From NCBI GenBank assembly GCA_019634625.1, contig JAHCBA010000029.1, forward strand, positions 1-64,000: a stretch of DNA of 64,000 nucleotides. The letters run 5' to 3'. Below the pieces are notes generated by a model. It was not told the DNA's origin and made no database searches. It worked only from the letters and a program-made list of their open reading frames with translations. Of the stretch, positions 6,667 through 53,313 are shown piece by piece. The stretch's first letter is position 1. The number at the start of each line of letters is the position of its first letter. Source of the DNA: Verrucomicrobiia bacterium. GTDB lineage: Bacteria; Verrucomicrobiota; Verrucomicrobiia; Limisphaerales; CAIMTB01. Made by a program: the position numbers and the translations under genes.

Positions 6667-9297
6667 TCAGGAGGCGAAGAGGTCGAGTTGGGGGGAGTCG
6701 GGGAGCTGGCGGAGCTTGTCGCGTTCGGCGCGTTGGCGGGGGGTGCGGCGGGCGGGTTGGGGAGGGGCGGTCGTTTCGTCGGGGTGGGCGGCGGCGACGC
6801 GCTGGAGGTCGAGTTCGGCTTCTTCGAGGACGCGGAGGATGGTTTTGGCGCGTTCGATGACGGGGCGGGGCACGCCGGCGAGGCGGGCGACCTGGATGCC
6901 GTAGCTTTTGTCGGAGCCACCGGGGAGGATCTTGTGGAGGAAGACGATGCGGTCCTGCCATTCACGGACGGCGACATTGAAGTTGCGGAGGCGGGGGAGC
7001 CGGGCGGCGAGTTCGGTGAGTTCGTGGTAGTGGGTGGCGAAGAGGGTGCGGGCGCCGACGGTGTGGTGGAGGTGTTCGACGATCGACCAGGCGAGGCTGA
7101 GTCCGTCGAAGGTGCTGGTGCCGCGCCCGACTTCATCGAGGATGACCAGGCTGCGGCGGGTGGCGTTGTTGAGGATGCTGGCGGTCTCGCTCATTTCGAC
7201 CATGAAGGTGGACTGACCGCGGGCGAGGTTGTCGCTGGCGCCGATGCGGGTGAAGAGGCGGTCCACGAGGCCGATGCGGGCACGTCGGGCGGGAAGGAAG
7301 GCGCCGGTGTGGGCGAGGAGGGTGAGGAGGGCGACCTGACGGATGTAGGTGCTTTTGCCGGCCATGTTGGGGCCGGTGATCAGGGCGATCTGGGCGGCGT
7401 CCACATCGAGGTCGGTGTCGTTGGGGACGAAGGGTTCGGCGGCGCCGGGGCGGTCGAGGACCGGGTGGCGGCCTTCCTCGATGAGGAGGACGCCGTCGGG
7501 GGTGATTTCGGGGCGGACGTGACCGCCGAGGCGGGCATTTTCGGCGAAGGCGGCGAGGGCATCGAGCTGGGCGAGGACGCGGGCGGAGGCCTGGAGGGGG
7601 GCGACGCGGGTGAGGACCTGTTCCCGGAGTTGCTGGAAGAGGGTGTACTCGAGTTTGAGGGCGCGTTCCTCGGCACCGAGGATTCGGCCCTCCATTTCCT
7701 TGAGGGCGGGGGTGACATAGCGTTCGCCGCCGGCGACGGTTTGTTTGCGGACGTAGTCGGCGGGGACTTTGTCGAGGTGGGTGCGGGTGACTTCGAGGTA
7801 ATAGCCGAAGACGGAATTGAAGCGGATTTTCAGGGAGGGGATGCCGGTGCGCTCGATTTCCTGCTGCTGGAGGCGGGCGATCCAGTCGTGGCCTTCGCGT
7901 CGCGCCTGGCGGAGGGCATCGAGTTCCGGGTGGTAACCGTCACGGATGAGGCCGCCCTCCTTGAGGGCGAGGGGCGGGTCGTCCACCAGGGCATGGCGGA
8001 TGAGTTCGGCGAGGTCGGGTTCGGCGGTGAGTTCGGTGAGGAGCGTGGTGAGGAGGGAAGGGGGGTGGGTGGGGGAACTGTCGGCGGCCGGGGATGGGAC
8101 GAGGGACGGGATGGGCTCCTGGGGAATCGGGGTCTTGGCGAGGTGCTGGACGAGGTGTTGGAGGGTGGGGACCTGTTCGAGGGCGAGGCGGAGGGCGACG
8201 AGGTCGCGGGCATTGCCGGAGCCGGCGCTGAGGCGGCCGAGGGTTCGTTCGAGATCGCGGACCTCGCGCAGGGCGGCGCGGAGGGCGGCGAGGGATTCGG
8301 GGTCGTCCAGGAGGCGGGCTATGGTGTCCTGGCGGCGTTGGATGGGTTCGAGGTTGGCGAGGGGCTGGCTGAGCCAGTCGCGGAGGAGCCGCGAGCCCAT
8401 GGGGGTGGCGGTGGATTGGAGGGCGGCGAGGAGGGAGGAAGCGCCCGGGGTATCGCGGTGGAGGGGTTCGAGGACTTCGAGGTGACGGAGGGAGGCGGCA
8501 TCGAGGTGGAGGAAGCCGGAGGTTTCGTAGGAGACCAGGGTGGTGAGCTGGGAGACATTCCGTCGGAGGTGCTGGGTGAGGTAGTGGAGGGCGGCGCCGG
8601 CGGCGGCGATGGCGGCGGGCCGGCCGCGGAGGCCGAAGCCATCGAGGGACGCGACACCGAAATGTTCGCGGAGGGCGAATTCGGCGGTTTCGGGGGCGAA
8701 GGTCCAGTCTTCTGAGCCCTGGGGGACGGTGGGGTGGAGTTGGAGCCGGGCTTCGAGATCGGCGAGGGAGGCGGGGAAGACGGTTTCGGCGGGGCGGACG
8801 CGTTCGAGTTCGCCGTCGAGGGCGGCGGCATCGGGGAGTTCGGTGACGCGGAAGGTGGCGGTGGTGAGATCGACGAGGGCGAGGCCGAAGCGGGAGCCGA
8901 CGCGGGAGACGGCGGCGAGGTAGTGATGACGTTCCGAGGCGAGGAGGCGTTCGTCGGCGTGGGTGCCGGGGCTGAGGATCTGGGTGACGGCGCGTTGGAC
9001 GAGTTTGCCCGGGCGGGGTTCCTCGATCTGGTCGCAGACGGCGACCTTGCGTCCGGCCTTGAGGAGGCGGGCGATGTAGGATTGGGCGGCATGATAGGGC
9101 AGGCCGCACATGGGGATGCCCTGGCGTTGGGTGAGGGCGAGGTTGAGGAGGGCGGCGCCGGATTTGGCATCTTCGAAGAAGAGTTCGTAGAAGTCGCCGA
9201 GGCGGAAGAGGAGGAGGGCGTCGCGGGGCACTTCGCTGCGGATGCGAAGGTACTGGGCCATCATGGGCGAGGATTGGGAGCTGGCCTCAGCGGGCAT
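6667..9297 (-). CDS. mutS: DNA mismatch repair protein MutS
   Basis: An 876-residue full-length MutS. The N-terminal mismatch-binding domain includes LLLFRLGDFYELFFEDA, which contains the conserved F-x-E mismatch-contact region in the form FYELF. The connector, lever and clamp regions follow. The ATPase domain carries Walker A GPNMAGKSTYIRQ, the SETASILNNAT stretch, Walker B LVILDEVGRGTSTFDG and the ATHYHEL switch. MutS binds mismatches as a dimer and recruits MutL; mutL is not in this window. The gene is convergent with the acyl-CoA ligase gene. The tail is charged and ends in QLPDSPQLDLFAS; a terminal QLDLF peptide is of the type that binds the beta clamp in other MutS proteins. Confidence 0.97.
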   Translation of the reverse strand: MPAEASSQSSPMMAQYLRIRSEVPRDALLLFRLGDFYELFFEDAKSGAALLNLALTQRQGIPMCGLPYHAAQSYIARLLKAGRKVAVCDQIEEPRPGKLVQRAVTQILSPGTHADERLLASERHHYLAAVSRVGSRFGLALVDLTTATFRVTELPDAAALDGELERVRPAETVFPASLADLEARLQLHPTVPQGSEDWTFAPETAEFALREHFGVASLDGFGLRGRPAAIAAAGAALHYLTQHLRRNVSQLTTLVSYETSGFLHLDAASLRHLEVLEPLHRDTPGASSLLAALQSTATPMGSRLLRDWLSQPLANLEPIQRRQDTIARLLDDPESLAALRAALREVRDLERTLGRLSAGSGNARDLVALRLALEQVPTLQHLVQHLAKTPIPQEPIPSLVPSPAADSSPTHPPSLLTTLLTELTAEPDLAELIRHALVDDPPLALKEGGLIRDGYHPELDALRQARREGHDWIARLQQQEIERTGIPSLKIRFNSVFGYYLEVTRTHLDKVPADYVRKQTVAGGERYVTPALKEMEGRILGAEERALKLEYTLFQQLREQVLTRVAPLQASARVLAQLDALAAFAENARLGGHVRPEITPDGVLLIEEGRHPVLDRPGAAEPFVPNDTDLDVDAAQIALITGPNMAGKSTYIRQVALLTLLAHTGAFLPARRARIGLVDRLFTRIGASDNLARGQSTFMVEMSETASILNNATRRSLVILDEVGRGTSTFDGLSLAWSIVEHLHHTVGARTLFATHYHELTELAARLPRLRNFNVAVREWQDRIVFLHKILPGGSDKSYGIQVARLAGVPRPVIERAKTILRVLEEAELDLQRVAAAHPDETTAPPQPARRTPRQRAERDKLRQLPDSPQLDLFAS

Positions 9298-9566
9298 GGG
9301 ACGGCGACGGTAACAGGGGAGCGGGGTGGGGTCACGCGGGAGTCAGGCGGGGACGGGCGGGCGCAAAAAAAGCGGTGCAAGCAAAGATTTATCGTGAGTT
9401 CCGGCGGGTGCTTCCGTTATACACGCGGTCGAAGCCTGTCATGTTCGCCCCGCGATTCATGGAGCGCGCCATTCTGGCAACGCCGGGAGGGAAAAGATGC
9501 CCGGGGTTGTGGGGAGGTGCCGACACGGGGAGCCAGGCCGAAGTGGGGCCGGATGGATGCCAGCGC
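9298..9566. other. Intergenic region upstream of the minisatellite
   Basis: About 270 bp between the mutS start and the 13-bp repeats. It contains a short AT-rich stretch around 9365-9425 that could carry promoters for mutS (leftward) and for the small peptide gene (rightward). No gene or clear -35/-10 pair was assigned. Confidence 0.3.
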
Positions 9567-9683
9567 CGGGGCCAATTGCAGGGGCCAATTGCAGGGGCCA
9601 AATGCCGGGACCAGTCACCGGGACCAGTCACCGGGGCCGGTTACCGGGGTCAGGCGTCGGGGAGAGACATCGGGGAGAGACGC
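9567..9683 (+). repeat. Degenerate 13-bp minisatellite, nine units
   Basis: Nine head-to-tail units of exactly 13 bp can be laid out from 9567: three of the type CGGGGCCAATTGC, two CGGGACCAGTCAC, one CGGGGCCGGTTAC, one CGGGGTCAGGCGT and two CGGGGAGAGACAT-like. Neighbouring units are nearly identical while distant ones differ, the pattern left by local duplication. The period is not a multiple of three, so it is probably non-coding. It lies in the leader region of the Lys/Ala peptide gene. Confidence 0.8.
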
Positions 9684-9755
9684 CGGGTCAGGGTCGGGCG
9701 CTGGATCGAAGGCAAACCGCGGAGTGGACCGCAGTCCAGATGGGAGGTGAACGAG

Positions 9756-9815
9756 ATGGCAGCGAAGAAGAAGGCAGCCAAGAAGGCCGCTAAGAAGACC
9801 GCCAAGAAGAAGTAA
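9756..9815 (+). CDS. 19-residue Lys/Ala-rich peptide resembling a histone H1-like tail
   Basis: An ATG at 9756 opens a 19-codon gene of only Met, Ala, Lys and one Thr (MAAKKKAAKKAAKKTAKKK). A perfect GGAGG lies 9 bp upstream and a strong hairpin terminator follows 22 bp after the stop, so a short transcript ending here is plausible. The AAKK pattern matches the C-terminal tails of bacterial histone H1-like and some HU proteins that bind DNA through charge. No globular domain is present. A longer in-frame reading starting upstream would run through the 13-bp minisatellite and lacks any conserved sequence, so the short form is preferred. Function as a nucleoid or RNA-binding peptide is inference. 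Confidence 0.6.
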   Translation: MAAKKKAAKKAAKKTAKKK

Positions 9816-9837
9816 CCTCCTGGATCAACCATCACGC

Positions 9838-9877
9838 GACGAGGCTAGCCGAGCCTATCGGCTGGCCTCGTCTTCTT
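9838..9877 (+). terminator. Rho-independent terminator after the Lys/Ala peptide gene
   Basis: A 15-bp stem GACGAGGCTAGCCGA pairs with TCGGCTGGCCTCGTC (one T-G wobble) around a GCCTA loop at 9853-9857. It is followed by TTCTTATTT. The EamA transporter gene starts 8 bp later. Confidence 0.85.
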
Positions 9878-9884
9878 ATTTATC

Positions 9885-10799
9885 ATGCTCGCGGCGTTTC
9901 TGACGACCCTGTTGTTTTCGATTTCCGGCGTGTCGGCGAGCCGGTCCACGCGAATTCTGCCGAGTCTCGAGGCGAACTTCTGGCGGTTGCTGCTGGCGAC
10001 GTTGTTTCTGGCGACGTACGGGCACGGGTGGGGGGCGGGGTTGGGGGGAGTGGCCCTGGGTTGGTTTTTGATCAGCGGTTTTATTGGATTCGGGGTGGGG
10101 GACATCGCGTTGTATCTGGCCTATCCGCGGCTGGGTTCACGCCTGGTGATTTTGATTGTGCATTGCGTGGCGGCTCCGTTGGCGGCGGGGGTCGAGTGGA
10201 TCTGCCTTGGCCTGCCGATGACCGGAACGGAGGTGGTGGCGAGTGGCCTGATCCTTTCGGGGGTGGTGACGGCGTTATTTCCCGAGCGGGGCCTTGAGCG
10301 GGAAGCGAAGGCGAGGAGCGGTTTCGGGGCGGGGGTGGGGTATGCGTTGGTGGCGGCGGCGGGGCAGGGGTTGGGTGCGGTATTGAGCCGGCATGCGTTT
10401 GAGGTGGCGCGGATGGCGGGTGAGCCTGTGGATGGGATCAGCGCGGCGTACCAGCGGATCCTGCCCGGGGTGGCATTGAGTGCGTTGACCTACATCTGGC
10501 TCCGGCGGTGGGGTCGGGGCGGGGTGCCGGGGGATGCGGGGGCATCGGGCAGGCTTCGGAAGGCGGCGCCGTGGGTGCTGGTCAATGCGCTGGCGGGTCC
10601 GACGCTGGGGGTGAGTTGTTTTCAGTGGGCCCTGGCGCAGCGGGGAACCGGGGTGGTGCTGCCGATCGTGGCCCTGACACCGCTGATCATCATCCCGTTT
10701 GCGATGCGATGGGAGGGGGAACGGCCTTCGCGGCGCTCGCTGTTTGGGGGGGTGCTGGCGGTGGCGGGGGCGGTGATCCACGCGGCCACGCACTCGTGA
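9885..10799 (+). CDS. EamA/DMT-superfamily transporter
   Basis: A 304-residue, strongly hydrophobic protein with about ten predicted membrane segments arranged as two halves, as in the drug/metabolite transporter superfamily. It opens MLAAFLTTLLFSISGVSASR, and the typical end-of-domain phrase PLIIIPFAMRWEGERPS is followed by GGVLAVAGAVI. Substrate cannot be told from sequence; members export amino acids, nucleotides or drugs. The start lies directly behind the terminator of the peptide gene, so the promoter must overlap that terminator or transcription must read through it. Confidence 0.82.
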   Translation: MLAAFLTTLLFSISGVSASRSTRILPSLEANFWRLLLATLFLATYGHGWGAGLGGVALGWFLISGFIGFGVGDIALYLAYPRLGSRLVILIVHCVAAPLAAGVEWICLGLPMTGTEVVASGLILSGVVTALFPERGLEREAKARSGFGAGVGYALVAAAGQGLGAVLSRHAFEVARMAGEPVDGISAAYQRILPGVALSALTYIWLRRWGRGGVPGDAGASGRLRKAAPWVLVNALAGPTLGVSCFQWALAQRGTGVVLPIVALTPLIIIPFAMRWEGERPSRRSLFGGVLAVAGAVIHAATHS

Positions 10800-10805
10800 A
10801 ATGGA

Positions 10806-10837
10806 CGCAAACTTCGTGCATATGCACGAAGTTTGCG
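10806..10837. repeat. 32-bp perfect palindrome, copy 1
   Basis: The 16-base half CGCAAACTTCGTGCAT is followed directly by its exact reverse complement, with no loop. A 26-bp version of the same palindrome recurs at 26876 and a worn half-copy is seen near 53651. It lies 6 bp after the transporter gene and 83 bp before the GH9 gene. No T-tract follows, so it is not a classical terminator. Confidence 0.9.
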
Positions 10838-10920
10838 ACGATTGCGGACCTGGAGTGGATCGCGGGGGCAGAATGGGCTTCGTCCGGGGTGGAGTCATCG
10901 GGTAGAAGCATCTTCAGACT

Positions 10921-13101
10921 GTGAAAGCATTCGTTTCCATTCTGGCGGGTCTGGGTTTGACCTGGGCGTTGTGGGGGCAGGAGGCCGCACCGTCGGTGCG
11001 GTTGAACACCCTGGGATATCTTCCGGAGGCGCGGAAGGAGGCGACGGTGGAGGGAGGGGCGGAGCGGTTTTCCGTGGTGCGGGAGCGGGATGGCGTGGTG
11101 ATGCTGGAGGGGCCGCTGGGGGAGGCGAGGCCGCACGGGGGGAGTGGGACGCGGCTGAGGACGGCGGATTTTTCGGGATTGGCCGAGCCTGGGGAGTACC
11201 GCCTGCGCCTCGATGCGGGCGGCACGTCACCGGTTTTCCGGGTTGGGAACGATGTGTATCGCGAGGCGTACCGGACGGTGATGCGGGGGTTTCATCTCTG
11301 GCGGTGCGGAACGGCGGTGCGTGGGGAGCATGGGGGCGACGTGTTTGCGCACGGGGCGTGTCATCTGGATGATGCGCGACTCGATCTGGTGGGGCGGCCG
11401 GGGGAGCGGCGGGCGGCGACGGGCGGCTGGCATGACGCGGGGGATTACAACAAATACGTTGTGAATGCCGGGGTGACGGTGGGGGTGCTGTTGCGGGCGT
11501 GGGAGGATTTTGGGCCGGCGCTTGGGGGGATCCGGCTGGGCTGGCCGGATTCGGGCGGGGAGTGGCCCGAGTACCTGTCCGAGGTGCGATGGGAGATCGA
11601 CTGGCTGCACAGGATGCAGGCGGACGACGGGCGGGTGTATCACAAGGTCAGCACGCGGGAGTTTGGGGCGATGATTCTGCCGGACCGGGAGACGGCCGAA
11701 CGGTATTTCGCGCCTCCGAGCACGGCGGCGACGGCCTCGTTCGTGGCGATGATGGCGCAGGCGGCGCGGGTGTTCCGGCCCTACGACGCGGCGGAGGCGG
11801 AGCGGTGTCTGGCGGCGGCTCGGAGGAGCTATGCGTATTTGAAGGCGCATCCGGACAATGAGCATGCGGACCAGAGCGCGTTCCGGACCGGGACCTACCA
11901 GACTTCGGACGACGACGATCGGTTGTGGGCGGCGGCGGAGTTGTGGGAGACCACGGGGGACCCGGAGGTGCTGAAGGACCTGGAGGGCCGGCTGCGGGAG
12001 GCGGGGGTGCGGGTTCAGGACGAGTTCGACTGGGGTTCGGTGGGCAACCTGGGGATCTTCACGTACCTGAGATCGGGCCGCGGGGGTCGGGATGAGGAGC
12101 TGGTGCAGGAGTTCCGGGACGACGTGTTGAGGGCGGCGGACCGGATTGTGGCGACACGGGACGGGCAGGCGTACGGGCGGACGATGGGGGACCGGTATCA
12201 CTGGGGCTGCAACGGCACGGTGGCGCGGCAGAGCCTGGTATTGCACGCGGCGTACCGGGTCTCGGCCCGGCGGGTGTACCGCGAGGCGGCATTGGACACG
12301 GTGCATCACGTGTTCGGTCGGAATGCGTACGGGCGGTCGTTCGTGACGGGGGTTGGGTATCGTCCGCCGATGCGGCCCCACGACCGGCGGTCGGCGGGGG
12401 ACGACGTGGTGGCGCCGTGGCCGGGGTATCTGGTGGGCGGGGCGCATCCGACGGAGGGGGATTGGCGGGATGTGGAGGAGGATTACCGGACCAATGAGAT
12501 CGCCATCAATTGGAATTCGGCCCTGGTGTATGCGCTGGCGGGATTTGTGGACGGGGCGGCCGGGTGGCGCATCGAGGGACCGCCGCCGGCGCGGCGTCCG
12601 GACGTGGTCTTTGTGCCCACGCCGAACAAGGTGGTGAAGCGGATGCTGGAGCTGGCGGAGATCCAGCCTGGCGACGTCGTGTACGACCTTGGCTGCGGGG
12701 ACGGCCGGATTGTGGTGGAAGCGGCCAAGCGGTACGGGGTGCGGGCGGAGGGATTCGACATTGATCCCGACCGGGTGCGGGAGGCGCGGGAGAATGTCCG
12801 GACCAACGGGGTGGCGCATCTGGTGACCATCCACCAGGCGGACATCTTCACGCTGGATTTGCGTCCGGCCAACGTGGTGATGCTTTACCTGTTGCCGCAG
12901 CTCAACGTCCGGCTGATGCCGCAGCTTCGGGAACTGCGGCCCGGGTCACGCATTCTCTCGCACGATTTCGACATGCGTGGAGCCAGGCCGGTGGTGCGTG
13001 AGACGGTGGAGGTGGAGGACACCGGGGCGGGGGATCTGTTTTTCGGGCCGCGGGAGCACACGATCTACCTGTGGCGGGTTCCCTGGGAACCCGGGGAGTG
13101 A
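10921..13101 (+). CDS. Secreted glycoside hydrolase family 9 enzyme fused to a SAM-dependent methyltransferase domain
   Basis: A 726-residue protein from a GTG start. Residues 1-20 form a signal peptide (KAFVSILAGLGLTWALWG). Residues 25-95 look like the Ig-like N-terminal domain of GH9 cellulases (VRLNTLGYLPEARKEA). Residues about 100-545 are the GH9 barrel: GGWHDAGDYNKYV supplies the catalytic aspartates (near 172 and 175) and EEDYRTNEIAINWNSAL the catalytic glutamate (near 526). GH9 enzymes cleave beta-1,4-glucans with inversion. After a short Pro/Arg linker, residues about 562-720 are a complete methyltransferase fold with VVYDLGCGDGRIVVEAA, an acidic GFDIDPDR loop and a motif with SHDFDMRGA. 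The frame is open without a stop between the halves. No internal start with a good ribosome-binding site was noticed. Confidence 0.85.
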   Translation: MKAFVSILAGLGLTWALWGQEAAPSVRLNTLGYLPEARKEATVEGGAERFSVVRERDGVVMLEGPLGEARPHGGSGTRLRTADFSGLAEPGEYRLRLDAGGTSPVFRVGNDVYREAYRTVMRGFHLWRCGTAVRGEHGGDVFAHGACHLDDARLDLVGRPGERRAATGGWHDAGDYNKYVVNAGVTVGVLLRAWEDFGPALGGIRLGWPDSGGEWPEYLSEVRWEIDWLHRMQADDGRVYHKVSTREFGAMILPDRETAERYFAPPSTAATASFVAMMAQAARVFRPYDAAEAERCLAAARRSYAYLKAHPDNEHADQSAFRTGTYQTSDDDDRLWAAAELWETTGDPEVLKDLEGRLREAGVRVQDEFDWGSVGNLGIFTYLRSGRGGRDEELVQEFRDDVLRAADRIVATRDGQAYGRTMGDRYHWGCNGTVARQSLVLHAAYRVSARRVYREAALDTVHHVFGRNAYGRSFVTGVGYRPPMRPHDRRSAGDDVVAPWPGYLVGGAHPTEGDWRDVEEDYRTNEIAINWNSALVYALAGFVDGAAGWRIEGPPPARRPDVVFVPTPNKVVKRMLELAEIQPGDVVYDLGCGDGRIVVEAAKRYGVRAEGFDIDPDRVREARENVRTNGVAHLVTIHQADIFTLDLRPANVVMLYLLPQLNVRLMPQLRELRPGSRILSHDFDMRGARPVVRETVEVEDTGAGDLFFGPREHTIYLWRVPWEPGE

Positions 13102-13109
13102 TCGTTCAT

Positions 13110-13277
13110 CGGAGGGCCGGGATTCACGAGGCTGCGATGGTGTGGTGCATTGGGATGGGGACTCGCGGAGCTCGTCCCTCCGGAGTGAAGCGGCGGGGTG
13201 AAATCGAAGGGCCGGGTTCTGCGGGGCTGGAAGGGTGGGGAGCGCTGGGTTGAGGACTCTCGGAGCTCGTCCCTCCG
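13110..13277 (+). repeat. Tandem pair of REP-like palindromes, copies B1 and B2
   Basis: B1 (13110-13182) and B2 (13205-13277) are each 73 bp, with period 95 bp and a GAGTGAAGCGGCGGGGTGAA spacer between them. The right arms (GGAGCTCGTCCCTCCG) are almost invariant, while the left arms carry substitutions (for example GGGATTCACGAGGC). The tandem lies between the GH9 gene and the glucan operon. Confidence 0.85.
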
Positions 13278-13343
13278 ATTCGCGGCCTCCACAGCCATGG
13301 CTCCGGGGTGCACTGCGGATGCACAGGAATCCGGACGGCACGC

Positions 13344-13373
13344 TTGGCAGGAATTGCAGGAATCGGGTACGCT
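13344..13373 (+). promoter_or_regulatory. Candidate sigma70-type promoter for the GH57-treY-treZ-malQ operon
   Basis: TTGGCA (13344-13349) and TACGCT (13368-13373) are separated by 18 bp. This would start transcription about 70 bp before the GH57 gene and downstream of the REP pair. The hexamers match imperfectly, so this is only a candidate. Confidence 0.3.
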
Positions 13374-13450
13374 CCGTCCCCTGAAAGTGGATTGGGAGCG
13401 TCGCGGTCCCGTCATTGGGGTCCTTCGGTCGGAGCGGTACTCGACAGGCA

Positions 13451-15880
13451 ATGCAAAAGTATCTTTGTCTTCACGGACATTTCTATCAGCCGCCGCGGGA
13501 GAACCCGTGGCTGGAGGGGGTTGAACTTCAGGATTCGGCGCATCCGTACCACGACTGGAACGAGCGGATCACGGCGGAATGCTATGCGCCGAATGCGATG
13601 GCGCGGTTGCTGGACGGGGACGGGCGGATCGTGGACATCGTCAACAACTATTCGCGGATCAGTTTCAATTTCGGGCCCACGCTGCTGGCGTGGATGGAGC
13701 AGAAGGCGCCGGACGTTCTGGCGGCGATCGTCGAGGCGGATCGGAGGAGCCGGGATCGGTTTTCGGGTCATGGATCGGCGCTGGCGCAGGGGTACAACCA
13801 CATGATCCTGCCGCTGGCGAACGCACGGGACCGGCACACGCAGGTGGTATGGGGGAAGCGGGATTTCGAGCATCGGTTCGGACGGGCGCCGGAGGGGATG
13901 TGGCTGGCGGAGACGGCGGCGGACACGCCGTCGCTGGAGGCGCTGGCCCAGCAGGGGATCAAGTTCACGATTCTGTCGCCGTTCCAGGCCAGCCGGGTCC
14001 GGTCGTTGCGGGGCGGGCCGTGGAGCGACGTGAACGGGGCGCGGGTGGATCCGTCGCGGCCGTACCTGGTGCGGCTGCCGGCGGGGCGGAGCATCGTGGT
14101 GTTCTTCTATGATGCGCCGGTCTCGAAGGCGGTGGCCTTCGAGCGGTTGCTGGCGACCGGGGAGGGATTCGCGCACCGGCTGATGGATGCGTACGACGAC
14201 ATCCGGAACCGGGATCAACTGGTGCACATTGCGACGGATGGGGAATCGTACGGGCACCATCATCGATACGGGGAGATGGGTCTGGCGTATGCCTTGCGGT
14301 ACATCGAGTCGAACGGGCTGGCGAAGCTGACGAACTACGGGGAGTACCTGGCGGGGCATCCGCCGACGATGGAGGCGCAGATTCACGAGAAGAGCGCGTG
14401 GAGTTGTTCGCACGGGGTTTCGCGGTGGTTTGCCGATTGCGGCTGCAACAGCGGGGGCCGGCCGGGATGGAACCAGCGCTGGCGCGCCCCGTTGCGCGAG
14501 GCCTTCGACTGGCTGCGGGACCAATTGGCGCCGCGGTACGAGGAGGCGTCGAGGAAGCTGCTGGTCAACCCGTGGGCGGCGCGGGACGATTACATTTCCG
14601 TCATACTGGACCGGTCGGACGGGTCGGTGGCGGCGTATTTCGAGAGGCACGGACTGCGGCCGCTGGACGAGGCGGAGCAGGTCACGGCGTTGCGGCTCCT
14701 GGAACTGCAGCGGCACGCGATGCTGATGTACACGAGCTGCGGGTGGTTTTTCGACGAACTGTCGGGGATCGAGACGGTGCAGGTGATCCAGTATGCGGGG
14801 CGGGCGCTGCAACTGCTGCAGAACGTGACCGGCGAGGATCTGGAGCCGGCGTTTGTGGAACGGCTGGCGCGGGCGCCGAGCAACATCCACGAGCACCGGA
14901 ACGGGCGGCACATCTACGAGAAGTTCGTCAAGCCGGCGATCGTGGACCGGGAGCGGCTGGGGGCGCACTACGCGATCAGCTCGCTGTTCGAGGAGCAGGC
15001 GCCGGTGCAGCGGATCTACTCGTACGTGTTCGAGCAGGAGCATCGCCATGTGTACACGGCGGGCAAGGCGCGGCTGGTGGTGGGGAGTTCGAAGGTCACC
15101 TTCGAAGTGACGCGGGCCTGCGACCGGGTGAGTTTTGCGGCGCTGCACCTGGGCGACCACAACGTTCACGGCGGGGTGCGGATCTTCCGGGGCCAGGAGG
15201 CGTTCGAGGAACTGGTGATGGAGTTTCGCGAAGCGTTTGACCGGGCGGATTTCCCGCTGGTGATCCGGCTGATGGACCGGCATTTCGGGGAATCGTACTA
15301 TTCGTTGAAGTCGCTGTTCCGGGACCAGCAGCGAAAGATCCTGAACGAGATCCTGGTTTCGACCGGGCAGGATCTGGAATCGCATTTCCGGCAGATCACG
15401 GACCAGTACACGCCGCTGATGCGGTTTCTGAAGGACATCGGGGCGCCATTGCCACCGGCGTTGAACACGGCGGCGGATTTCGTGCTGAACTGCGATTTGC
15501 AGCGGCTGTTCGAGAGCGCCGATCCGGACCCGACGAAGGCGCGGGAATGGATGGAACTGGCGCGGGACGGCAATGTGGCGATTGCGGTGGATGAGCTGGC
15601 GTACGCGATCAAGGGCCAGTTGGACCGGCGGCTGGCGCGACTGGCGGAGGTGCCGGACGATCCGGGGTATCTGAGCCGGACGGCGGACATTGCCGAGGTG
15701 GTGCGCTCGATGGACATCGAGGTGAATCTCTGGAAGACGCAGAACCTGTACTTCCAGATGCGCCGCAGCCTGCTGGCGTCACGACGCGAGGCTGCGGCGG
15801 GGGGGGATGCGGGGGCGGCGGAGTGGGTGGGACACTTTGCGCGGCTGGGGGAGCAATTCGGGTTCCGAACGGAGGATTGA
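13451..15880 (+). CDS. Glycoside hydrolase family 57 protein with DUF3536 domain
   Basis: An 809-residue protein starting MQKYLCLHGHFYQPPRENPW, the classical GH57 opening (HGHFYQP). The nucleophile motif is visible in APEGMWLAETAADT, and a second acidic motif in HIATDGESYGHHHRYGE. A Cys-rich insertion (SWSCSHGVSRW) and the long C-terminal half match DUF3536. GH57 enzymes act on alpha-glucans (amylases, branching enzymes, 4-alpha-glucanotransferases). The product of this subclass is unsettled, but the next three genes show an alpha-glucan role. The treY gene begins 5 bp after the stop. There is no signal peptide, so it should be cytoplasmic. Confidence 0.9.
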   Translation: MQKYLCLHGHFYQPPRENPWLEGVELQDSAHPYHDWNERITAECYAPNAMARLLDGDGRIVDIVNNYSRISFNFGPTLLAWMEQKAPDVLAAIVEADRRSRDRFSGHGSALAQGYNHMILPLANARDRHTQVVWGKRDFEHRFGRAPEGMWLAETAADTPSLEALAQQGIKFTILSPFQASRVRSLRGGPWSDVNGARVDPSRPYLVRLPAGRSIVVFFYDAPVSKAVAFERLLATGEGFAHRLMDAYDDIRNRDQLVHIATDGESYGHHHRYGEMGLAYALRYIESNGLAKLTNYGEYLAGHPPTMEAQIHEKSAWSCSHGVSRWFADCGCNSGGRPGWNQRWRAPLREAFDWLRDQLAPRYEEASRKLLVNPWAARDDYISVILDRSDGSVAAYFERHGLRPLDEAEQVTALRLLELQRHAMLMYTSCGWFFDELSGIETVQVIQYAGRALQLLQNVTGEDLEPAFVERLARAPSNIHEHRNGRHIYEKFVKPAIVDRERLGAHYAISSLFEEQAPVQRIYSYVFEQEHRHVYTAGKARLVVGSSKVTFEVTRACDRVSFAALHLGDHNVHGGVRIFRGQEAFEELVMEFREAFDRADFPLVIRLMDRHFGESYYSLKSLFRDQQRKILNEILVSTGQDLESHFRQITDQYTPLMRFLKDIGAPLPPALNTAADFVLNCDLQRLFESADPDPTKAREWMELARDGNVAIAVDELAYAIKGQLDRRLARLAEVPDDPGYLSRTADIAEVVRSMDIEVNLWKTQNLYFQMRRSLLASRREAAAGGDAGAAEWVGHFARLGEQFGFRTED

Positions 15881-42209: not shown

Positions 42210-44570
42210 ATGCGCAGCGGGCCTGGCCCATGCATCCCGTTTCATCGGGCGATCTTGTGTGTCTTCGTGGCGGCCCTGCCCGGCGTGTGCGTTGCCTTCC
42301 CGGAAGGCCCCGCGACTCCCGGTTCGGCGTTGTACCGGGTCGAACGACATCGGGTGCCCCAGGCGCTGCCGGCACCCGTCCGAACGGCTTCGCCAGGAAC
42401 CCGGGCCGCGCCCGCCCCAACGCCCGTCCCTTCGGACTCCCGGCCAACCGTCCAGGTGCTGGACGGTCCCGAACTCCGGGGGAGGTTCGGACATTCGGTG
42501 GATGGGGCCGGGGACGTGAATGGCGACGGGTACGACGATGTGATCGTGTCGGCGTTCACCGCGCTGGATTGGGCGGGGCTGGTTCATGTGTACTACGGAG
42601 GACCCGACGGCGTGTCGGAAAGCCGGATCTGGCGGTACGCCTGCGAGGAGCCCCAGGCCAAGTTCGGACACCAGGTGGCGGGGTTGGGCGATGTCAACGG
42701 CGACGGCTATGACGACATCCTGATTGGCGCCCCCGATTTTCACCGGGAACCTGACATCAGCGGACGGGTGTTTGCATTCTATGGATCGGCGGAGGGCCTG
42801 CCCCCAAAGCCCTCCTGGGAGTATCGGACGCCCGTCGTGCAGGGGAACCTCGGCTTCAGCGTGGGCGCCGCGGGAGACGTCAATGGCGACGGATACGCCG
42901 ATGCGCTGGTGGGGGGCTACTACGACGTGGTTCCTCGACCGTCCGGGGCGCCCATGGTCCGTGGGTATGTGGGTCTGTTCTACGGTGGCCCGCAGGGTCT
43001 CGCTTCGGAGCCGGGCTGGGAGATTCGCGGCGACCGGAACATGACGCTGTTCGGGTATTCGGTCGCCGGGGCCGGAGACCTCAACGGGGATGGCTACGCC
43101 GACCTGGTGATCAGCGAGCCGCATGCCTCGGGGGCGCGGCAGAAGACCGGGCGCGTGTTTGTGTTCTACGGCTCCCCGGACGGACCCCGTCCGGACCCGG
43201 ACTGGACCATCGTGGGCGTTCAGGAAACGCAGGAGCTGGGGGTGTCGGTGAATGCGGCCGGCGATGTGAACGGGGACGGGTACGACGACCTGATCGTCGC
43301 CGCCAACCGCACCAGCAACGGTCAACGCGAGGAGGGCATGGTGCTGGTGTTCTTCGGTTCGCCGACCGGGCTCGGACTGGAACCCGACTGGCGATTCGAA
43401 TCCAACCAGGTCGAATTCCTGCTGGGCCACAGCGTGGCTCCGGCCGGGAGCGTCAATGGCGATCGTTACGGGGACATCGTGATCGGGGCCTTCTACGGGG
43501 AACAGGTCGAACCGAACGAAGGTGTCGCCATGGTGTTTCACGGATCGCGCTGGGGCCTGGGACGCCGCCCCGACTGGACCGGCCGCGGCATCCAACGCGA
43601 GTCGGGTTACGGTGCGACTGTCCGGTCGGCGGGCGACGTGAACGGCGACGGGTTTGCGGACATCGTCGTGGGACAACCCCGATACACCGGCAGTCTCGAG
43701 TATCAGGGGCGTGCCTTCCTATACTTCGGTTCCCGGGAGGGTCTGTCCGCTTCGAGCGGATGGCGGCCCCCGGGCGAACGGTTTGGATTCGAATTCCGCA
43801 GCGTGGTGGTGCCGTTTCCCGGCGTTGGCTGGACCTCGTTCCTGCTGCTGGCAACCGGCGCCGCGATTTTCGTGGTCACCCGCGGGTATTACCGGAGGCG
43901 CGAGAGGACCGCCCGGATGTTGCATGAGGTGCGGGAGTCCACCCTTCGCGCCGAACGCGACCGCGTGGCGCAGGATCTGCACGACCAGCTTGGCGCGCAC
44001 ATCACGGAGATCGCCCGCACCAGCGGCAATGCGCGACGCAGCCTGGACCAGACCCCGCTGGTCGAACGCAGCCTTCGCTCCATCGAGAAGACCGCCGGAG
44101 AACTGGTGGACAGCCTCGACCGGATCGTCTGGATCACCCAATCGCGCAACGACACCCTGGAACGGACGGTCGCCTACCTGCTCGACCGCATCGCCGAAAC
44201 CCTGGAGGCCGCCGACCTCGCCTGCGAACTCGATGTCCCTGTCAGGCTTCCCGACATCCCCATCGAGAGCGTGGTTCGGCGCGACATCCTGCTCGCCGTG
44301 CGGGAGGCCCTGCACAATGTGATCCGTCATGCCGGTGCCACCCGGGTGCGCGTCGCCGTCGCCATCGAAGCCCGCCGGCTCCGCATCCAGGTCGAGGATG
44401 ATGGCTGTGCGGAACCGCGGTACCCGGGCGAGGGCAGACGCCATTCGGGCAATGGCCTGGCCAACATGGAGGAGCGCATGCGCCGCCACGGCGGGAGCTG
44501 TACCGTCCGGTTCGAGGACCGCGGCACCTGCGTCGCCCTGGATCTGCCCCTGCCGGAGCCACTCCCATGA
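42210..44570 (+). CDS. Sensor histidine kinase with extracytoplasmic seven-bladed FG-GAP (integrin-alpha-like) propeller
   Basis: A 786-residue protein. A signal peptide or N-terminal anchor (ILCVFVAALPGVCVAFP) precedes seven FG-GAP repeats at about residues 90-530, each with a phrase like FGHSVDGAGDVNGDGYDD; most keep a D-x-N-x-D-G calcium-binding loop. A single membrane segment (FLLLATGAAIFVV) follows. The cytoplasmic kinase is of the NarL type: HisKA_3 with RDRVAQDLHDQLGAHI (His near 591) and a HATPase_c domain (REALHNVIRHAGA, GNGLANMEERMRRHGG). The response regulator gene overlaps its stop by 4 bp (ATGA), so the pair is a two-component system. Sensing of a calcium-dependent or polysaccharide/protein ligand is inferred from the propeller. 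The domain combination is unusual. Confidence 0.9.
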   Translation: MRSGPGPCIPFHRAILCVFVAALPGVCVAFPEGPATPGSALYRVERHRVPQALPAPVRTASPGTRAAPAPTPVPSDSRPTVQVLDGPELRGRFGHSVDGAGDVNGDGYDDVIVSAFTALDWAGLVHVYYGGPDGVSESRIWRYACEEPQAKFGHQVAGLGDVNGDGYDDILIGAPDFHREPDISGRVFAFYGSAEGLPPKPSWEYRTPVVQGNLGFSVGAAGDVNGDGYADALVGGYYDVVPRPSGAPMVRGYVGLFYGGPQGLASEPGWEIRGDRNMTLFGYSVAGAGDLNGDGYADLVISEPHASGARQKTGRVFVFYGSPDGPRPDPDWTIVGVQETQELGVSVNAAGDVNGDGYDDLIVAANRTSNGQREEGMVLVFFGSPTGLGLEPDWRFESNQVEFLLGHSVAPAGSVNGDRYGDIVIGAFYGEQVEPNEGVAMVFHGSRWGLGRRPDWTGRGIQRESGYGATVRSAGDVNGDGFADIVVGQPRYTGSLEYQGRAFLYFGSREGLSASSGWRPPGERFGFEFRSVVVPFPGVGWTSFLLLATGAAIFVVTRGYYRRRERTARMLHEVRESTLRAERDRVAQDLHDQLGAHITEIARTSGNARRSLDQTPLVERSLRSIEKTAGELVDSLDRIVWITQSRNDTLERTVAYLLDRIAETLEAADLACELDVPVRLPDIPIESVVRRDILLAVREALHNVIRHAGATRVRVAVAIEARRLRIQVEDDGCAEPRYPGEGRRHSGNGLANMEERMRRHGGSCTVRFEDRGTCVALDLPLPEPLP

Positions 44571-45274
44571 AAACTGAATTCCAGCCGGATATCCGTGTCG
44601 CGATCGTCGAGGACATCGCCGAGCTGCGCCGCAGCCTGAGCGAGCTGATCGGGACCGCCGCCGGCTATTGCCTGTGCGGCGCGTGGCCGGATGCCGAGAG
44701 CGCCCTGCGGGGAATTCCGTCCACCCAACCCGACGTCGTCCTCATGGACATCGAGTTGCCGGGGATGGACGGGGTGGAATGCGTGCGCCGGCTCAAGCCC
44801 ATGCTCCCGCAGGCGCGGATCATGATGCTCACCGTGTTCGGGGACCAGGAACCGCTCTTTCGCGCCCTCGAGGCCGGGGCCAGCGGCTACCTCATCAAGA
44901 AGGCGCCGCCCGAAAGACTGCTCGCCGCAATTCGGGAGCTGCATCAGGGCGATTCGCCCATGTCTCCGGCGGTCGCACGGTTTCTTGTGAACTGGTTCCA
45001 GGATCGGAACGCGACCGAGGCCGGCGCGACGCTTCCCCGCGTGTTGCCGCGGGAACCCGCGGCGGCCGTGCCCGACACGTACCTCACCGTTCGCGAGGAG
45101 GAGATCCTCAAGCTCATCGCCCGCGGGCAGCGGTACAAGGAGATCGCCGACGGGTTGGGGGTCTCGTTCGACACCGTCCGCACCCACGTGCGAAACATCT
45201 TCAAGAAACTCCACGTCAACTCGAAGGCCTCCGCCGTGCGACGCTACCGGGCCCTGGGCAACGGCGATGCCTGA
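44567..45274 (+). CDS. LuxR/NarL-type response regulator
   Basis: A 235-residue protein. The receiver domain begins RVAIVEDIAELRRSLSELIG, has the phospho-acceptor in VVLMDIELPGMDGVE and the Lys motif SGYLIKKAPPERL. The C-terminal DNA-binding domain reads LTVREEEILKLIARGQRYKE and FDTVRTHVRNIFKKLHVNSK. It is the partner of the overlapping kinase gene. Its targets are unknown; the next genes (secreted repeat proteins) are candidates. Confidence 0.96.
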   Translation: MKTEFQPDIRVAIVEDIAELRRSLSELIGTAAGYCLCGAWPDAESALRGIPSTQPDVVLMDIELPGMDGVECVRRLKPMLPQARIMMLTVFGDQEPLFRALEAGASGYLIKKAPPERLLAAIRELHQGDSPMSPAVARFLVNWFQDRNATEAGATLPRVLPREPAAAVPDTYLTVREEEILKLIARGQRYKEIADGLGVSFDTVRTHVRNIFKKLHVNSKASAVRRYRALGNGDA

Positions 45275-45326
45275 CGTGCGTTGCGGGGCGGTGCATCCCC
45301 GAGTTGTGGGTGAGGAGGCAGGGAAT

Positions 45327-45398
45327 CAGAGGGACGAGCTCCGCGAGTCCTCAATCCATTGCACCACTCCCCTGCGGCCTCGTGGAATCCGCCCTACG
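45327..45398 (-). repeat. REP-like palindrome, copy C (inverted)
   Basis: The element is reversed relative to copy A, with an outer arm GCATCCCCGAGTTGTGGGTGAG at 45293-45315 and the left core arm AGAGGGACGAGCTCCGCGAG. The core right arm (GGCCTCGTGGAATCCGCCCT) is worn. It occupies the gap between the response regulator gene and the next secreted protein. Confidence 0.8.
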
Positions 45399-45458
45399 CG
45401 ATTTCTACGTCATTTTTGCGCCTGACGACGAGGCCACCCCCTCCCGTATCGTCAGCCG

Positions 45459-46949
45459 TTGCACACGACCGATCCCAGTCCGGACCTCTGCCCGGATCCC
45501 AGCCCAAACGCACCGGCGTTGCGCCTGCCTGGCAGGGCCCGGGTTCCTGCCGGATGGCTCTGGCTGGTGCCGGCCCTGCTGCTCCGACTCGCCACCGGGC
45601 CGTGCTTCGGGGAGACGGAGGCGCCGCGCATCGACGCGGTGCTGCTGGTGGAATCGGACCTGTTCCTCCTGGCCTACGAATCCCATCCCACCCGCTACTA
45701 CACCTTGCTGGCGGGCGATTCGATCGATGATCTGAGGCCGATCCGGATGGTGTTGGGACGGGATGGCAGCGCCGCCTTTGGGGATCTTCCTGCGGGTGCC
45801 ACCACTCGTTACTACGCGATCGAGGAACGCCGCCTCGACGATCCGGGGGATGCGGACGGCGATGGCGTGGACGATGTAACGGAACTGTTGGGCGGCACCG
45901 ACCCGCTGTTGGCCGGCGGGCCGGCCAACCTCCCACCAACGGTCGAGATCGTATCGCCCCGGGATGGAGGTGCGGTCCGTCTCGGAAGCGGTGTCACGCT
46001 CACGGCAGACGCCCATGATCCCGAGGGGGACCTGACCGGAGTCAGCGTGTTGGTCGGAGGCCGACGGTTCCCTGAGGTGCGCGACGCCCCGTTTGCGGTG
46101 GAATGGATTCCGGAGCGGACCGGCTCGTTTGTCGTGTCCGCCCTCGCCACGGACGGCATGGGGGCGTTCTCAGTGGCGCCGTTCGTGACGATCCGGGTCA
46201 CCACCACCAATCTGCCGCCAGTCGTGACCCTCGTCGCGGTTCCCATCGGCGAGCTTGTCGAACCCGCAACCGTCCAGGTGACGGTGACCGCCATCGATCC
46301 GGACGGCACGGTTCTCGAGGCGGAACTGTTCCGGCAGGGGCTGTCGCTCGGCGTGTCCACCAACACCACCTTCACTCTCGCATTGCACGCTCTTCCGGCC
46401 GGCGAGCATCTGCTTGTGGCCAGGGCCACGGACGATGAAGGCGCCGTGGGAGTCTCCGCGACCGTCAGCCTCCGGGTGCGGCTCCTCACCCTCGATCTTC
46501 CGGCCGGCTCCCGGTACATCAGCCGTGAGCTGAGCGTGTTCAACTTCGGCGCACCGACCGCCGCCCGTGAGGCCATATCGAGCGAGGTGTCGGTTTACAA
46601 CGCGATGCCCGGTTCACGGTCGCCATGGTCACTCCAGCAAATGGCCATCTCCCGTGAACTGAGCTTGTGGAACTTCGGTTCTCCCAGCGCGGCGATCGAG
46701 GCCATCTCGAAAGAAGTCTCGGTCTATGCCGCCCTGCCGGGCTCCGGTTCCACAGGAACGCGCATCCCCCAGGCCATCTCCCGCGAGGCCAGCCTCTGGA
46801 ACTTCGGAGCGCCCAGCGCCCGGATCGAGGCCGTCAGCCGTGAGACAAGCCTCTTCAACTTCGGTTCGCCAACCGCGCGCATCGAGGCCATCGGCCGCGA
46901 AGTGTCCGTCCTCAACTTCTCCGAACTGCCGCCCTCCACCCAACCCTGA
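45459..46949 (+). CDS. Secreted Ig-like protein with seven SREVSVFNFG-type repeats
   Basis: About 496 residues from a TTG start; a TTG at 45519 would give a cleaner signal peptide (VPAGWLWLVPALLLRLA), so the start is uncertain. After a thrombospondin-3-like DADGDGVDDVTEL loop come two Ig-like domains (VEIVSPRDGGAVRLGSGVTL; VVTLVAVPIGELVEPATVQV). The C-terminal 150 residues carry seven repeats, such as AISRELSLWNFGSPSAAIEA and AVSRETSLFNFGSPTARIEA; copies two and four carry an inserted MPGSRSP or LPGSGS. No named family was recognised for this repeat. The FG-GAP sensor system lies directly upstream. A structural surface or matrix role is inferred. Confidence 0.78.
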   Translation: MHTTDPSPDLCPDPSPNAPALRLPGRARVPAGWLWLVPALLLRLATGPCFGETEAPRIDAVLLVESDLFLLAYESHPTRYYTLLAGDSIDDLRPIRMVLGRDGSAAFGDLPAGATTRYYAIEERRLDDPGDADGDGVDDVTELLGGTDPLLAGGPANLPPTVEIVSPRDGGAVRLGSGVTLTADAHDPEGDLTGVSVLVGGRRFPEVRDAPFAVEWIPERTGSFVVSALATDGMGAFSVAPFVTIRVTTTNLPPVVTLVAVPIGELVEPATVQVTVTAIDPDGTVLEAELFRQGLSLGVSTNTTFTLALHALPAGEHLLVARATDDEGAVGVSATVSLRVRLLTLDLPAGSRYISRELSVFNFGAPTAAREAISSEVSVYNAMPGSRSPWSLQQMAISRELSLWNFGSPSAAIEAISKEVSVYAALPGSGSTGTRIPQAISREASLWNFGAPSARIEAVSRETSLFNFGSPTARIEAIGREVSVLNFSELPPSTQP

Positions 46950-46960
46950 GCCCCACAGCC

Positions 46961-48172
46961 ATGCTCCTCAACCCTATGAACCTCGTCACACGCCTTGGCC
47001 TCCTCGCCGTATTCCTCGCAGCCCCCGCCTTCGCCCAGTTGGCCGTACCCAGCGACGGCTCGGATGGGCACCTCGTGGCCAGCGGGAAGGAATACATCAT
47101 CGATCTTTCCCAGGCCCGGGATGGTTCCTGGGACCAGAACAACGCCGCATTCGCGGGGAAGGGGATCTACGACGCCAGCCAGTGGGCCGTGGTCTTCAAG
47201 TACGAATCCGTCACCATCCCCAACGGCACCGTCGTCCGGTTCCTGAACCATCGATCCCGGGCGCCCGTGGTGTGGCTGGTGAGGGGAGAGGTGACGATCG
47301 CGGGAGAACTCGACCTGAGTGGAGAAACTCGGTTCCTTCCGGTTCTGCACAACGACTACCTCATCCCATCCGAACCGGGCCCAGGCGGGTGGCGAGGAGG
47401 CCCGGCTGGTCCTTTGGGAAAGGGGGCCGGTCTGGGGCCTGGGGGAGGCGGTGGGCCTGGGGGAGGCGGTGGGCCTGGGGGAGGGCCCGGAGGAGTGTCA
47501 AACGGAGCGCATGCGAGCCAATATGGAAACCCCGAACTGGTTCCACTGGTCGGCGGATCTGGAGGTTCATCCTTGAACCAGCCGGCCGGAGGCGGCGGCG
47601 GGGCGATCGTCATCGTGGCGGGTGGAATCATCGACATCAGGGGCATGGTTAAAGCGAATGGCGGAAGGTATGGCTATGCAGGTGGGGGAACTGCCGCCGG
47701 CGGAGGCGTGCGACTCGTTGCCAACGCCGTGACCGGGAACGGAGAGATATCCTGCCTGCCTGATGGACGTATCCGGATCGAAGCGAACACTCTCGACACC
47801 ACCTTGCGACTTGCCCCGGAAACCATCGCCGTCCCACCGGAACCGTCGCCCGTTCTATGGCCCACAACGAACAGCCCCCAGGTCCGCATTGCGGGTGTGG
47901 CGGGAAAACCCGTTCCGGCGGATCCTTCGGCACCGCTTCAAGCGGCGGCGGACGTGGATATTCAGAGCGATCTTCCCGTGGTGGTCCTCATCGAGACGCA
48001 GTACTTCCCGCTGGAGGGTTTGGTCGAATTGCGGGTTGCCCAGAAATTCGGCGCCGCCGCGTGGAGACCTGCAACTTACCTATCCGGAAACGCGCTCGCA
48101 GCGACCTGGCATGTGACCAACACCTTCGTCAAGGGCTACTCGGTCCTCCAGGTGCGTGCCACGGTCCCATGA
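46961..48172 (+). CDS. Secreted Gly-rich beta protein
   Basis: A 403-residue protein with signal peptide (LGLLAVFLAAPAFAQLAV). A region reading GPGGGGGPGGGGGPGGGPGG lies at about residues 158-180, encoded by an 18-bp repeat near 47440-47490. The following stretch (AIVIVAGGIIDIRGMVKANG) resembles beta-helical adhesin segments with Gly-rich turns. The C-terminal 80 residues form a beta domain ending SVLQVRATVP. The gene follows the SREVSVFN-repeat protein by 11 bp, so both are probably in one transcript. Alternative start: ATG at 46976. Function unknown. Confidence 0.8.
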   Translation: MLLNPMNLVTRLGLLAVFLAAPAFAQLAVPSDGSDGHLVASGKEYIIDLSQARDGSWDQNNAAFAGKGIYDASQWAVVFKYESVTIPNGTVVRFLNHRSRAPVVWLVRGEVTIAGELDLSGETRFLPVLHNDYLIPSEPGPGGWRGGPAGPLGKGAGLGPGGGGGPGGGGGPGGGPGGVSNGAHASQYGNPELVPLVGGSGGSSLNQPAGGGGGAIVIVAGGIIDIRGMVKANGGRYGYAGGGTAAGGGVRLVANAVTGNGEISCLPDGRIRIEANTLDTTLRLAPETIAVPPEPSPVLWPTTNSPQVRIAGVAGKPVPADPSAPLQAAADVDIQSDLPVVVLIETQYFPLEGLVELRVAQKFGAAAWRPATYLSGNALAATWHVTNTFVKGYSVLQVRATVP

Positions 48173-51622: not shown

Positions 51623-52149
51623 ACCGATTCATCCGGTTTCTTGTGTCGCGCGGCGCAGGCTGGCATGGGTGAAATGATGCCGAAGGGTCTTATGCCAGAC
51701 AATTCGATTTGTGAAGCGGTGACAAACTCGGGCGTGAACCGGCCGTGCCAGCTGAAGTTGCTCCGCATCGGACGAACTCCGATGCCTCCGCGACGGGATC
51801 GATCCTGGTGCGAAATCATGTCAGCACTCACCCAAGCGGGACCACCTGCTGTCGAAATTGGGCCGGATCAGAATTCCCACACAGCCATGCAATTGTGGGC
51901 AGAACGATGACCTGAACCCGCGATTGGCGTAGGATCTTGCCTGCCGAGGGCAATGTGGCATTGGGACCTTGCTTGTCGGAAGAACCGATGGGAACGAGTT
52001 GAAATCGGGTGTGTGCGATGGGGCGACGCTGGAAAAGGTGCGCCTGCCGGCTCGATGACCGCCCTTCGGGCTGAGTACGAGCACCCGGGAGAGATGGCTT
52101 GGGGGAGTTCCAGAAGTCTGAGAAGCGGCCGGATGGATCTCGGAGGGGT
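51623..52149. other. Intergenic/remnant region upstream of the ATPase operon
   Basis: About 520 bp of mixed composition, AT-richer than the main window. Short open frames exist on both strands (one on the minus strand reads SNFSWHGRFTPEFVTASQIE) but none has a convincing start or conserved domain. It may contain the ATPase promoter and remains of the degraded gene at 52150. Confidence 0.3.
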
Positions 52150-52628
52150 TTTTCGGGGAGGTCAGCAGCGCGGGTGCGGTGCGGTGGGGGGATCCGAGGC
52201 AGAGGGTCGAGGGGTAGCCGGTGGAGGCGAGGGTCTGATACACCTCGGAGCAGCGGGAGCAGAGGCCTTCGTCGGGGTGCCAGTCCGGGAATTCGGACTG
52301 GATGCGGTCGCGGACGGGGTGGGGAAGGGATGCCGCCTGGGCCCAGTCGAAGGCGGCGAGGCCACAGAGGGGGCAGGGTCCGCCGGGCACGGGGGCGGGG
52401 CGGGCCTGAAGGACGCGGGGATCGGAGGCGATATCGAGCAGGTTGCGATGGGTGGCGGCGGTGCCGGGCGAAGGCGGCGGCGCGGTCGTCGGGATCGGAG
52501 ACGGAATGGCAGTGTTCCCGATCGGCATGGATGCGGCGGACTTGCAGTGCGGGAGGGGAGTTGGCGGAAGCGGACGGGGCGACGCGGAGGGCTGTTTCGA
52601 CCAGGTCATCGTCGTAGAGGGTGCGCAT
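52150..52628 (-). pseudogene. Frameshifted zinc-ribbon protein gene
   Basis: An ATG at 52628 opens MRTLYDDDLVETALRVAPSA and reads sensibly to about 52450 (VSDPDDRAAAFA). Good coding then continues in the frame one base over: HRNLLDIASDPRVLQARPAP, GGPCPLCGLAAFDWAQAASL and FPDWHPDEGLCSRCSEVYQT, with two CxxC pairs that would bind zinc. Going from the first frame to the second needs one extra or two missing bases around 52440-52460. No slippery run was seen, so a broken gene is likelier than programmed frameshifting. The C-terminal limit is approximate. The protein family was not identified. Confidence 0.6.
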
Positions 52629-52642
52629 GGGGAACGGGGTGG

Positions 52643-52985
52643 TGGTTTGGGTTTGTGGACTCGCGGAGCTCGTTCCTCCGGAGTGAAGCAACGGGGTGAA
52701 ATCGGAGGGCCGAGTTCCACGAGGCCGCAACGGGGTGGTGCTTGGGTTTGTGGACTGGCGGAGTTCGTCCCTCCGGAGTGAAGCAATGGGGGTGAAATCG
52801 GAGGGCCGAGTTCCACGAGGCCGCAATGGCGTGAAGCGTTGGTTTGTGGACTGGCGGAGCTCGTCCCTCCGGAGTGAAGCAATGGGGTTGAAATCGGAGG
52901 GCCGAGTTCCACGAGGCCGCAATGGCGTGAGGCGTTGGGTTTGTGGACTCGCGGAGTTCGTCCCTCCGATTCGTTGCCTCCTCAC
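52643..52985 (+). repeat. REP-like tandem array, copies D0-D3
   Basis: After a lone right arm (D0, ending 52680) come three complete palindromes: D1 52703-52775, D2 52799-52871 and D3 52895-52968. The period is 96 bp; the spacers read GAGTGAAGCAATGGGGGTGA or close variants. An outer-arm remnant (CTCACCCGCGACTGGGG) follows D3. The near-identity of the units shows recent duplication. Confidence 0.9.
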
Positions 52986-53025
52986 CCGCGACTGGGGGAG
53001 GCGCCGAATTCCGGGGGGCCAGAAC

Positions 53026-53313
53026 TCAGCGGTGGACGATCTTGTCGAACTCGGCGGCGTCGAAGGCCCGTGCCGATTCGGTGCGGACGTTGCCCTGGGC
53101 GGCGAGCAGGGCGAGGGCACGGAGGATGGACTGCTCGTCGTTGGCGGTCAGGATGAGGAGGCCGTCGAAGGCGCCGCTGGTCCAGAGCTGGGATTCGACC
53201 TGGACGCCTTCGCGCTGGGCGGCTTCGCGGAAGGCGTTGGCGCGTTGCGGGGATTGCTGGAGGGCTCGGGTTCCCTGGTCGGTGAAACGGAGGAGGGTGA
53301 CGTAACGGATCAT
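53026..53313 (-). CDS. GYD-domain-like small protein
   Basis: A 95-residue protein: MIRYVTLLRFTDQGTRALQQ, then a VQVESQLWTSGAFDGLLILT strand-rich centre with the GAFDG turn that corresponds to the G-x-Y-D motif of GYD proteins, and a helical end. GYD proteins are ferredoxin-fold, dimeric and of unknown function. The ATG at 53313 is the only close start. It lies 41 bp from the end of REP array remnants. Confidence 0.8.
   Translation of the reverse strand: MIRYVTLLRFTDQGTRALQQSPQRANAFREAAQREGVQVESQLWTSGAFDGLLILTANDEQSILRALALLAAQGNVRTESARAFDAAEFDKIVHR

Follow-up and report, generated by a model that had tools for sequence, protein, structure and literature searches.

The histidine kinase HK and the response regulator RR probably constitute a membrane two-component system with an integrin-type propeller that controls REP-GLY, a cassette of two surface proteins encoded next to it. 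The four genes were identified in the window, i.e., the whole stretch of 64,000 nucleotides analyzed here, which was taken from assembly contig C29 of a 6.74 Mb Verrucomicrobiia genome (Table 1). HK presents an integrin-type propeller as the sensor of a complete signaling pair, REP-GLY is defined here as an uncharacterized secreted pair, and different sensors were shown to be placed beside this one output cassette. A survey from 2011 stated that the function of bacterial integrin-type propellers was unknown, and its main text mentions neither kinases nor two-component systems (PMC3192720). In the portion of the open-licence literature that was covered, no paper was found to describe a histidine kinase with FG-GAP repeats. 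Since HK puts such a propeller at the sensor position with a candidate output cassette alongside, its function becomes testable.

Architecture of HK and RR

The architecture of HK and RR is nearly certain. HK displayed a hydrophobic N-terminus (residues 8-34) and one transmembrane segment (538-557), and a periplasmic location of the region between them is consistent with this hydropathy profile. Pfam detected FG-GAP (1.5e-46, six stretches over threshold) and also FG-GAP_3 in HK, together with HisKA_3 (2.8e-7, residues 582-641) and HATPase_c (2.1e-10, residues 691-782), the latter two both above cut-off. The putative phospho-accepting His, H591, is located within the HisKA_3 domain and was invariant in an alignment of the 12 FG-GAP kinases, as were N703, D730, G732 and G749, which represent the N, G1 and G2 motifs of the HATPase domain. 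RR contained Response_reg (1e-23) and GerE (6e-16) domains, with a putative phospho-acceptor Asp61 and a conserved Lys111; the NCBIfam match was NarL-like and under the curated cut-off. The genes overlap by 4 bp, the ATG of RR sharing letters with the TGA stop of HK (ATGA, CCATGAAAA). The initial annotation had claimed this overlap, and HK, RR and the secreted repeat protein were all found by open reading frames and Pfam where it had put them.

A cognate regulator with receiver and GerE domains adjoins HK, as expected for HisKA_3 kinases with a NarL-type partner, and by the sequence features tested HK is assigned to the HisKA_3/NarL kinase group. It shares the HisKA_3 core and the GerE-type regulator with the kinases NarX, NarQ and UhpB and their regulators NarL and UhpA. 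However, the scores were far under the NCBIfam equivalog cut-offs, and the sensor domain of HK is unrelated to theirs. The order of a propeller, a transmembrane helix and a HisKA_3-type core with a cognate regulator nearby is also that of Reg_prop/Y_Y_Y sensor kinases. In HK, by contrast, one seven-bladed FG-GAP domain makes up the propeller. Neither Reg_prop nor Y_Y_Y was detected in HK by Pfam at E<=0.1, while the same scan found both at locus L221 (see below).

Table 1. Features of the window and of related loci
Feature	Locus	Position	Strand	Basis or remarks
Conserved block HK-RR-REP-GLY	window	42210-48172
HK, sensor histidine kinase, 786 aa	window	42210-44570	+	Pfam, hydropathy, motifs, AlphaFold model
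Seven FG-GAP repeats, residues 78-510 of HK	window	42441-43739	+	predicted closed seven-bladed integrin-type propeller
RR, NarL-type response regulator, 235 aa	window	44567-45274	+	Pfam, NCBIfam, motifs
Interspersed repeat, ~113 bp, high-copy	window	45289-45402	+	between RR and REP
REP, secreted protein, 496 aa, TTG start	window	45459-46949	+	Pfam Big_7, unit positions, repeat alignment
GLY, secreted Gly-rich protein, 403 aa	window	46961-48172	+	conserved uncharacterized family
HK	G123 (L153)	9282-11717	+
RR	G123 (L153)	11714-12385	+
REP	G123 (L153)	12600-13631	+
GLY	G123 (L153)	13700-14854	+
HK-RR and REP-GLY	G315 (L152, same contig as L047)		HK-RR +, REP-GLY -	REP-GLY divergent
HK-RR and GLY	G273 (L154, same as L069)		HK-RR +	GLY divergent, then a 1700-residue protein
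Protein with PEP-CTERM-like tail	L044	2981-3946		near FG-GAP kinase
Protein with PEP-CTERM-like tail	L046	4151-5218		near FG-GAP kinase
Protein with PEP-CTERM-like tail	L156	6134-6949		near FG-GAP kinase
Protein with PEP-CTERM-like tail	L157	12554-13222		near FG-GAP kinase

Fold of the propeller and its calcium loops

An AlphaFold model of HK was built with a 33-row alignment and reached a mean pLDDT of 80.8 and a pTM of 0.62, with residues 81-510 in blocks mostly of 87-98. When this model was compared with the PDB by Foldseek, the best 50 matches listed were integrin alpha chains (E ~1e-23 to 1e-21). VIA-align superimposed HK 78-510 on integrin alpha heads with Z of 39-41 and an rmsd of 2.2-2.8 A over 370-384 residues, the alignment running from the first strand through the last (integrin residues ~5-451). 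Because the model superimposes on these heads over the full length, a seven-bladed propeller that is closed and arranged as in integrins is well supported as a prediction, and the closed propeller proposed in the initial annotation agrees with this model.

HK agrees with the integrin alpha head and with bacterial integrin-type propellers (PMC3192720) in its seven FG-GAP repeats, calcium loops, fold and strand order. Unlike integrin alpha, it has no Ig-like leg domains, and the propeller leads straight into the transmembrane helix and the kinase core. HK is neither an integrin subunit nor a Reg_prop/Y_Y_Y kinase, and the fold common to integrin heads and its propeller is no proof of a common function.

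Calcium loops of the DxNGDxxxD type lie at residues 102, 161, 223, 290, 352, 414 and 476. The loop at 414, in repeat six, is degenerate (SVNGDRYGD), and an intact DxNGDGxxD loop was present in six of the seven repeats. Bacterial FG-GAP propellers usually have one calcium site per blade (PMC3192720). The loop Asp residues were invariant in an alignment of 30 propellers without a kinase from many phyla, so the role of calcium in HK would most likely be structural.

Occurrence and origin of FG-GAP kinases

The window genome contained at least 150 FG-GAP_3 matches, and besides HK a single kinase found there carried FG-GAP. This second kinase (G000:C55, L042 5965-8924) has its own NarL-type regulator with a 4-bp overlap and no adjoining REP-GLY. 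The search of 320 genomes from the order gave, among the matches listed, 12 FG-GAP kinases, distributed over 10 genomes: two each in G000 and G003, and one each in G002, G038, G077, G082, G123, G273, G307 and G315. A 388-genome sample of the phylum gave no full-length HK match outside the own genome at E<=1e-45, and two other matches there covered the propeller alone. These counts agree with the description of the sensor as unusual in the initial annotation. When 84,980 species genomes were scanned, 76 propeller ORFs were obtained among the matches listed, two of which included a kinase (L047 and L069, both from Verrucomicrobiota). L047 is titled Akkermansia muciniphila but appears identical to the 9340-base contig G315:C81, which belongs to the order of the window, and this species name is probably mistaken.

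In a phylogeny built from 62 kinase cores, the window HK grouped with the C55 kinase and those of G315, G273 and G123 in one clade (support 97/91); C55 is the member without an adjoining cassette. The remaining FG-GAP kinases branched elsewhere, so that five changes were needed. This branching speaks against treating the FG-GAP kinases as one gene family, yet a single clade was not rejected (p-AU 0.131), so that either a single or a repeated origin may apply.

Conserved neighborhood of HK

A full-length GLY was located within ~2.5 kb of four of the 12 FG-GAP kinases, namely in the window, G123, G315 and G273. Thus, the gene order is conserved but rare among the matches listed from the 320 genomes. 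The identical order HK-RR-REP-GLY occurred in one other genome, G123, where HK and RR also overlap by 4 bp. The 1700-residue protein that follows GLY in G273 carried weaker SREFS units. Identity to the window HK over the alignment was 46% for the G315 kinase, 42% for G123 and 38% for G273. At these identities, the linkage is old or repeatedly selected and not the result of recent copying. The chance of the four-locus linkage of HK and GLY was estimated as ~5e-12, a rough product of per-genome chances that assumes uniform placement and independence. The initial annotation had asked for conservation of the gene order; it recurs in diverged genomes, being identical in one of them, whereas in two REP-GLY or GLY is oriented divergently.

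At a fifth locus, L221 from the same genus, HK-RR is followed on the same strand by REP-GLY after a gap of 1.9 kb, and Pfam assigns a Reg_prop and Y_Y_Y sensor to the kinase there. The cassette is therefore constant while the sensor varies: two-component systems with different sensors sit beside REP-GLY at some loci. A NarL-type regulator was also found near all of the other eight FG-GAP kinases. Proteins with PEP-CTERM-like tails lay 0.3-2.3 kb from four of these eight and may be a lead; one of the four proteins has a choice-of-anchor E domain.

The secreted cassette

The initial annotation had placed two secreted proteins downstream of the regulator. Both exist, but the second, GLY, falls outside the range it had given. 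REP contains two Ig-like Big_7 domains (Pfam, 6.1e-17) and a DADGDGVDD loop, and its residues 353-485 comprise seven SREVSVFNFG-type units, a repeat that was conserved in the alignment and had no Pfam or NCBIfam match. GLY had no Pfam, NCBIfam or PHROG match, and its profile retrieved nothing from PDB sequences at E<=0.1. A 24-member alignment of the GLY family displayed invariant W, G and D positions; the structure prediction, from a three-sequence alignment, was poor (pLDDT 54.5).

The REP-repeat profile matched in 16 of the 320 genomes of the order. GLY adjoined REP-type repeats at each of the 15 loci whose contigs permit a judgement, two further loci being near contig ends; therefore, REP and GLY form one output unit. 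Most of the cassettes had no kinase inside the fetched flanks, indicating that REP-GLY does not need the HK-RR system.

The spacer between RR and REP contains an interspersed repeat that has ~40 further sites in the genome at 86-93% identity, among the matches listed, and that is predicted to fold as a long hairpin (z -1.8). Co-transcription of RR and REP is doubtful because this element separates them. Promoter and terminator scans gave matches no more numerous than in shuffles.

Regulatory model and alternative explanations

In the model that we favor, the integrin-alpha-type propeller would act as the periplasmic sensor of the membrane system formed by HK and RR. Calcium may keep the blades rigid, while the propeller face would bind a ligand outside the cytoplasm, possibly a surface polymer, a matrix protein or the products of the cassette itself. 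Binding would be relayed via the transmembrane helix to the kinase helices, and phosphorylated RR would switch transcription of REP-GLY and so change the outer layer. Control of these matrix proteins by RR is plausible, and the retention of the kinase beside the same secreted proteins in relatives suggests a surface-sensing switch for outer-layer building. Of the calcium- or surface-sensing circuit originally put forward, the predicted propeller, the gene order and the unusual sensor stand, and calcium sensing is not supported. A full counterpart of integrin outside-in signaling, in which the HK head senses the state of the extracellular layer and in turn adjusts the REP-GLY proteins that build it, is unlikely.

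HK-RR may instead be a real system with its main targets elsewhere, REP-GLY being linked as ligand or by a common function and not controlled by RR. Most cassettes have no neighboring kinase, as this would predict. REP-type repeats were held by six of the 10 FG-GAP-kinase genomes and were unlinked in three, which fits a functional better than a cis-regulatory tie, although genome size and kinship confound the comparison. The arrangement HK-RR-REP-GLY in the window, in G123 and, with another sensor, in L221 is the usual pattern of local control, and we consider targets elsewhere rather unlikely.

It is improbable that the propeller serves mainly as an adhesin or as a scaffold for surface-protein assembly, with a kinase output that depends little on ligand. 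Among the matches listed, most bacterial propellers closest to that of HK are in kinase-less proteins, and the window genome abounds in FG-GAP domains; however, the kinase residues and the adjoining regulator were retained in diverged copies, and sensor, transmembrane helix and kinase follow the standard signaling layout. Periplasmic calcium as the signal proper, for which the six intact propeller loops and the additional loop in REP could be cited, is very improbable and was rejected as a specific signal, because such loops are a general feature of the FG-GAP fold, their Asp residues show no variation among propeller-only proteins from many phyla, and with one site per blade being usual (PMC3192720) nothing marks calcium as the signal.

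Further features of the loci

On the minus strand of the window, ORFs at 51821-53120 repeat a GGTSSASPQT...CGLVELGPPIS-like peptide. These ORFs look like translated copies of the interspersed repeat found between RR and REP, and not like genes. At loci L222, L224, L234 and L264, giant proteins of 1039 to 3025 aa carry SREVSVFN-type units beside GLY, and the one at L224 has five CARDB stretches.
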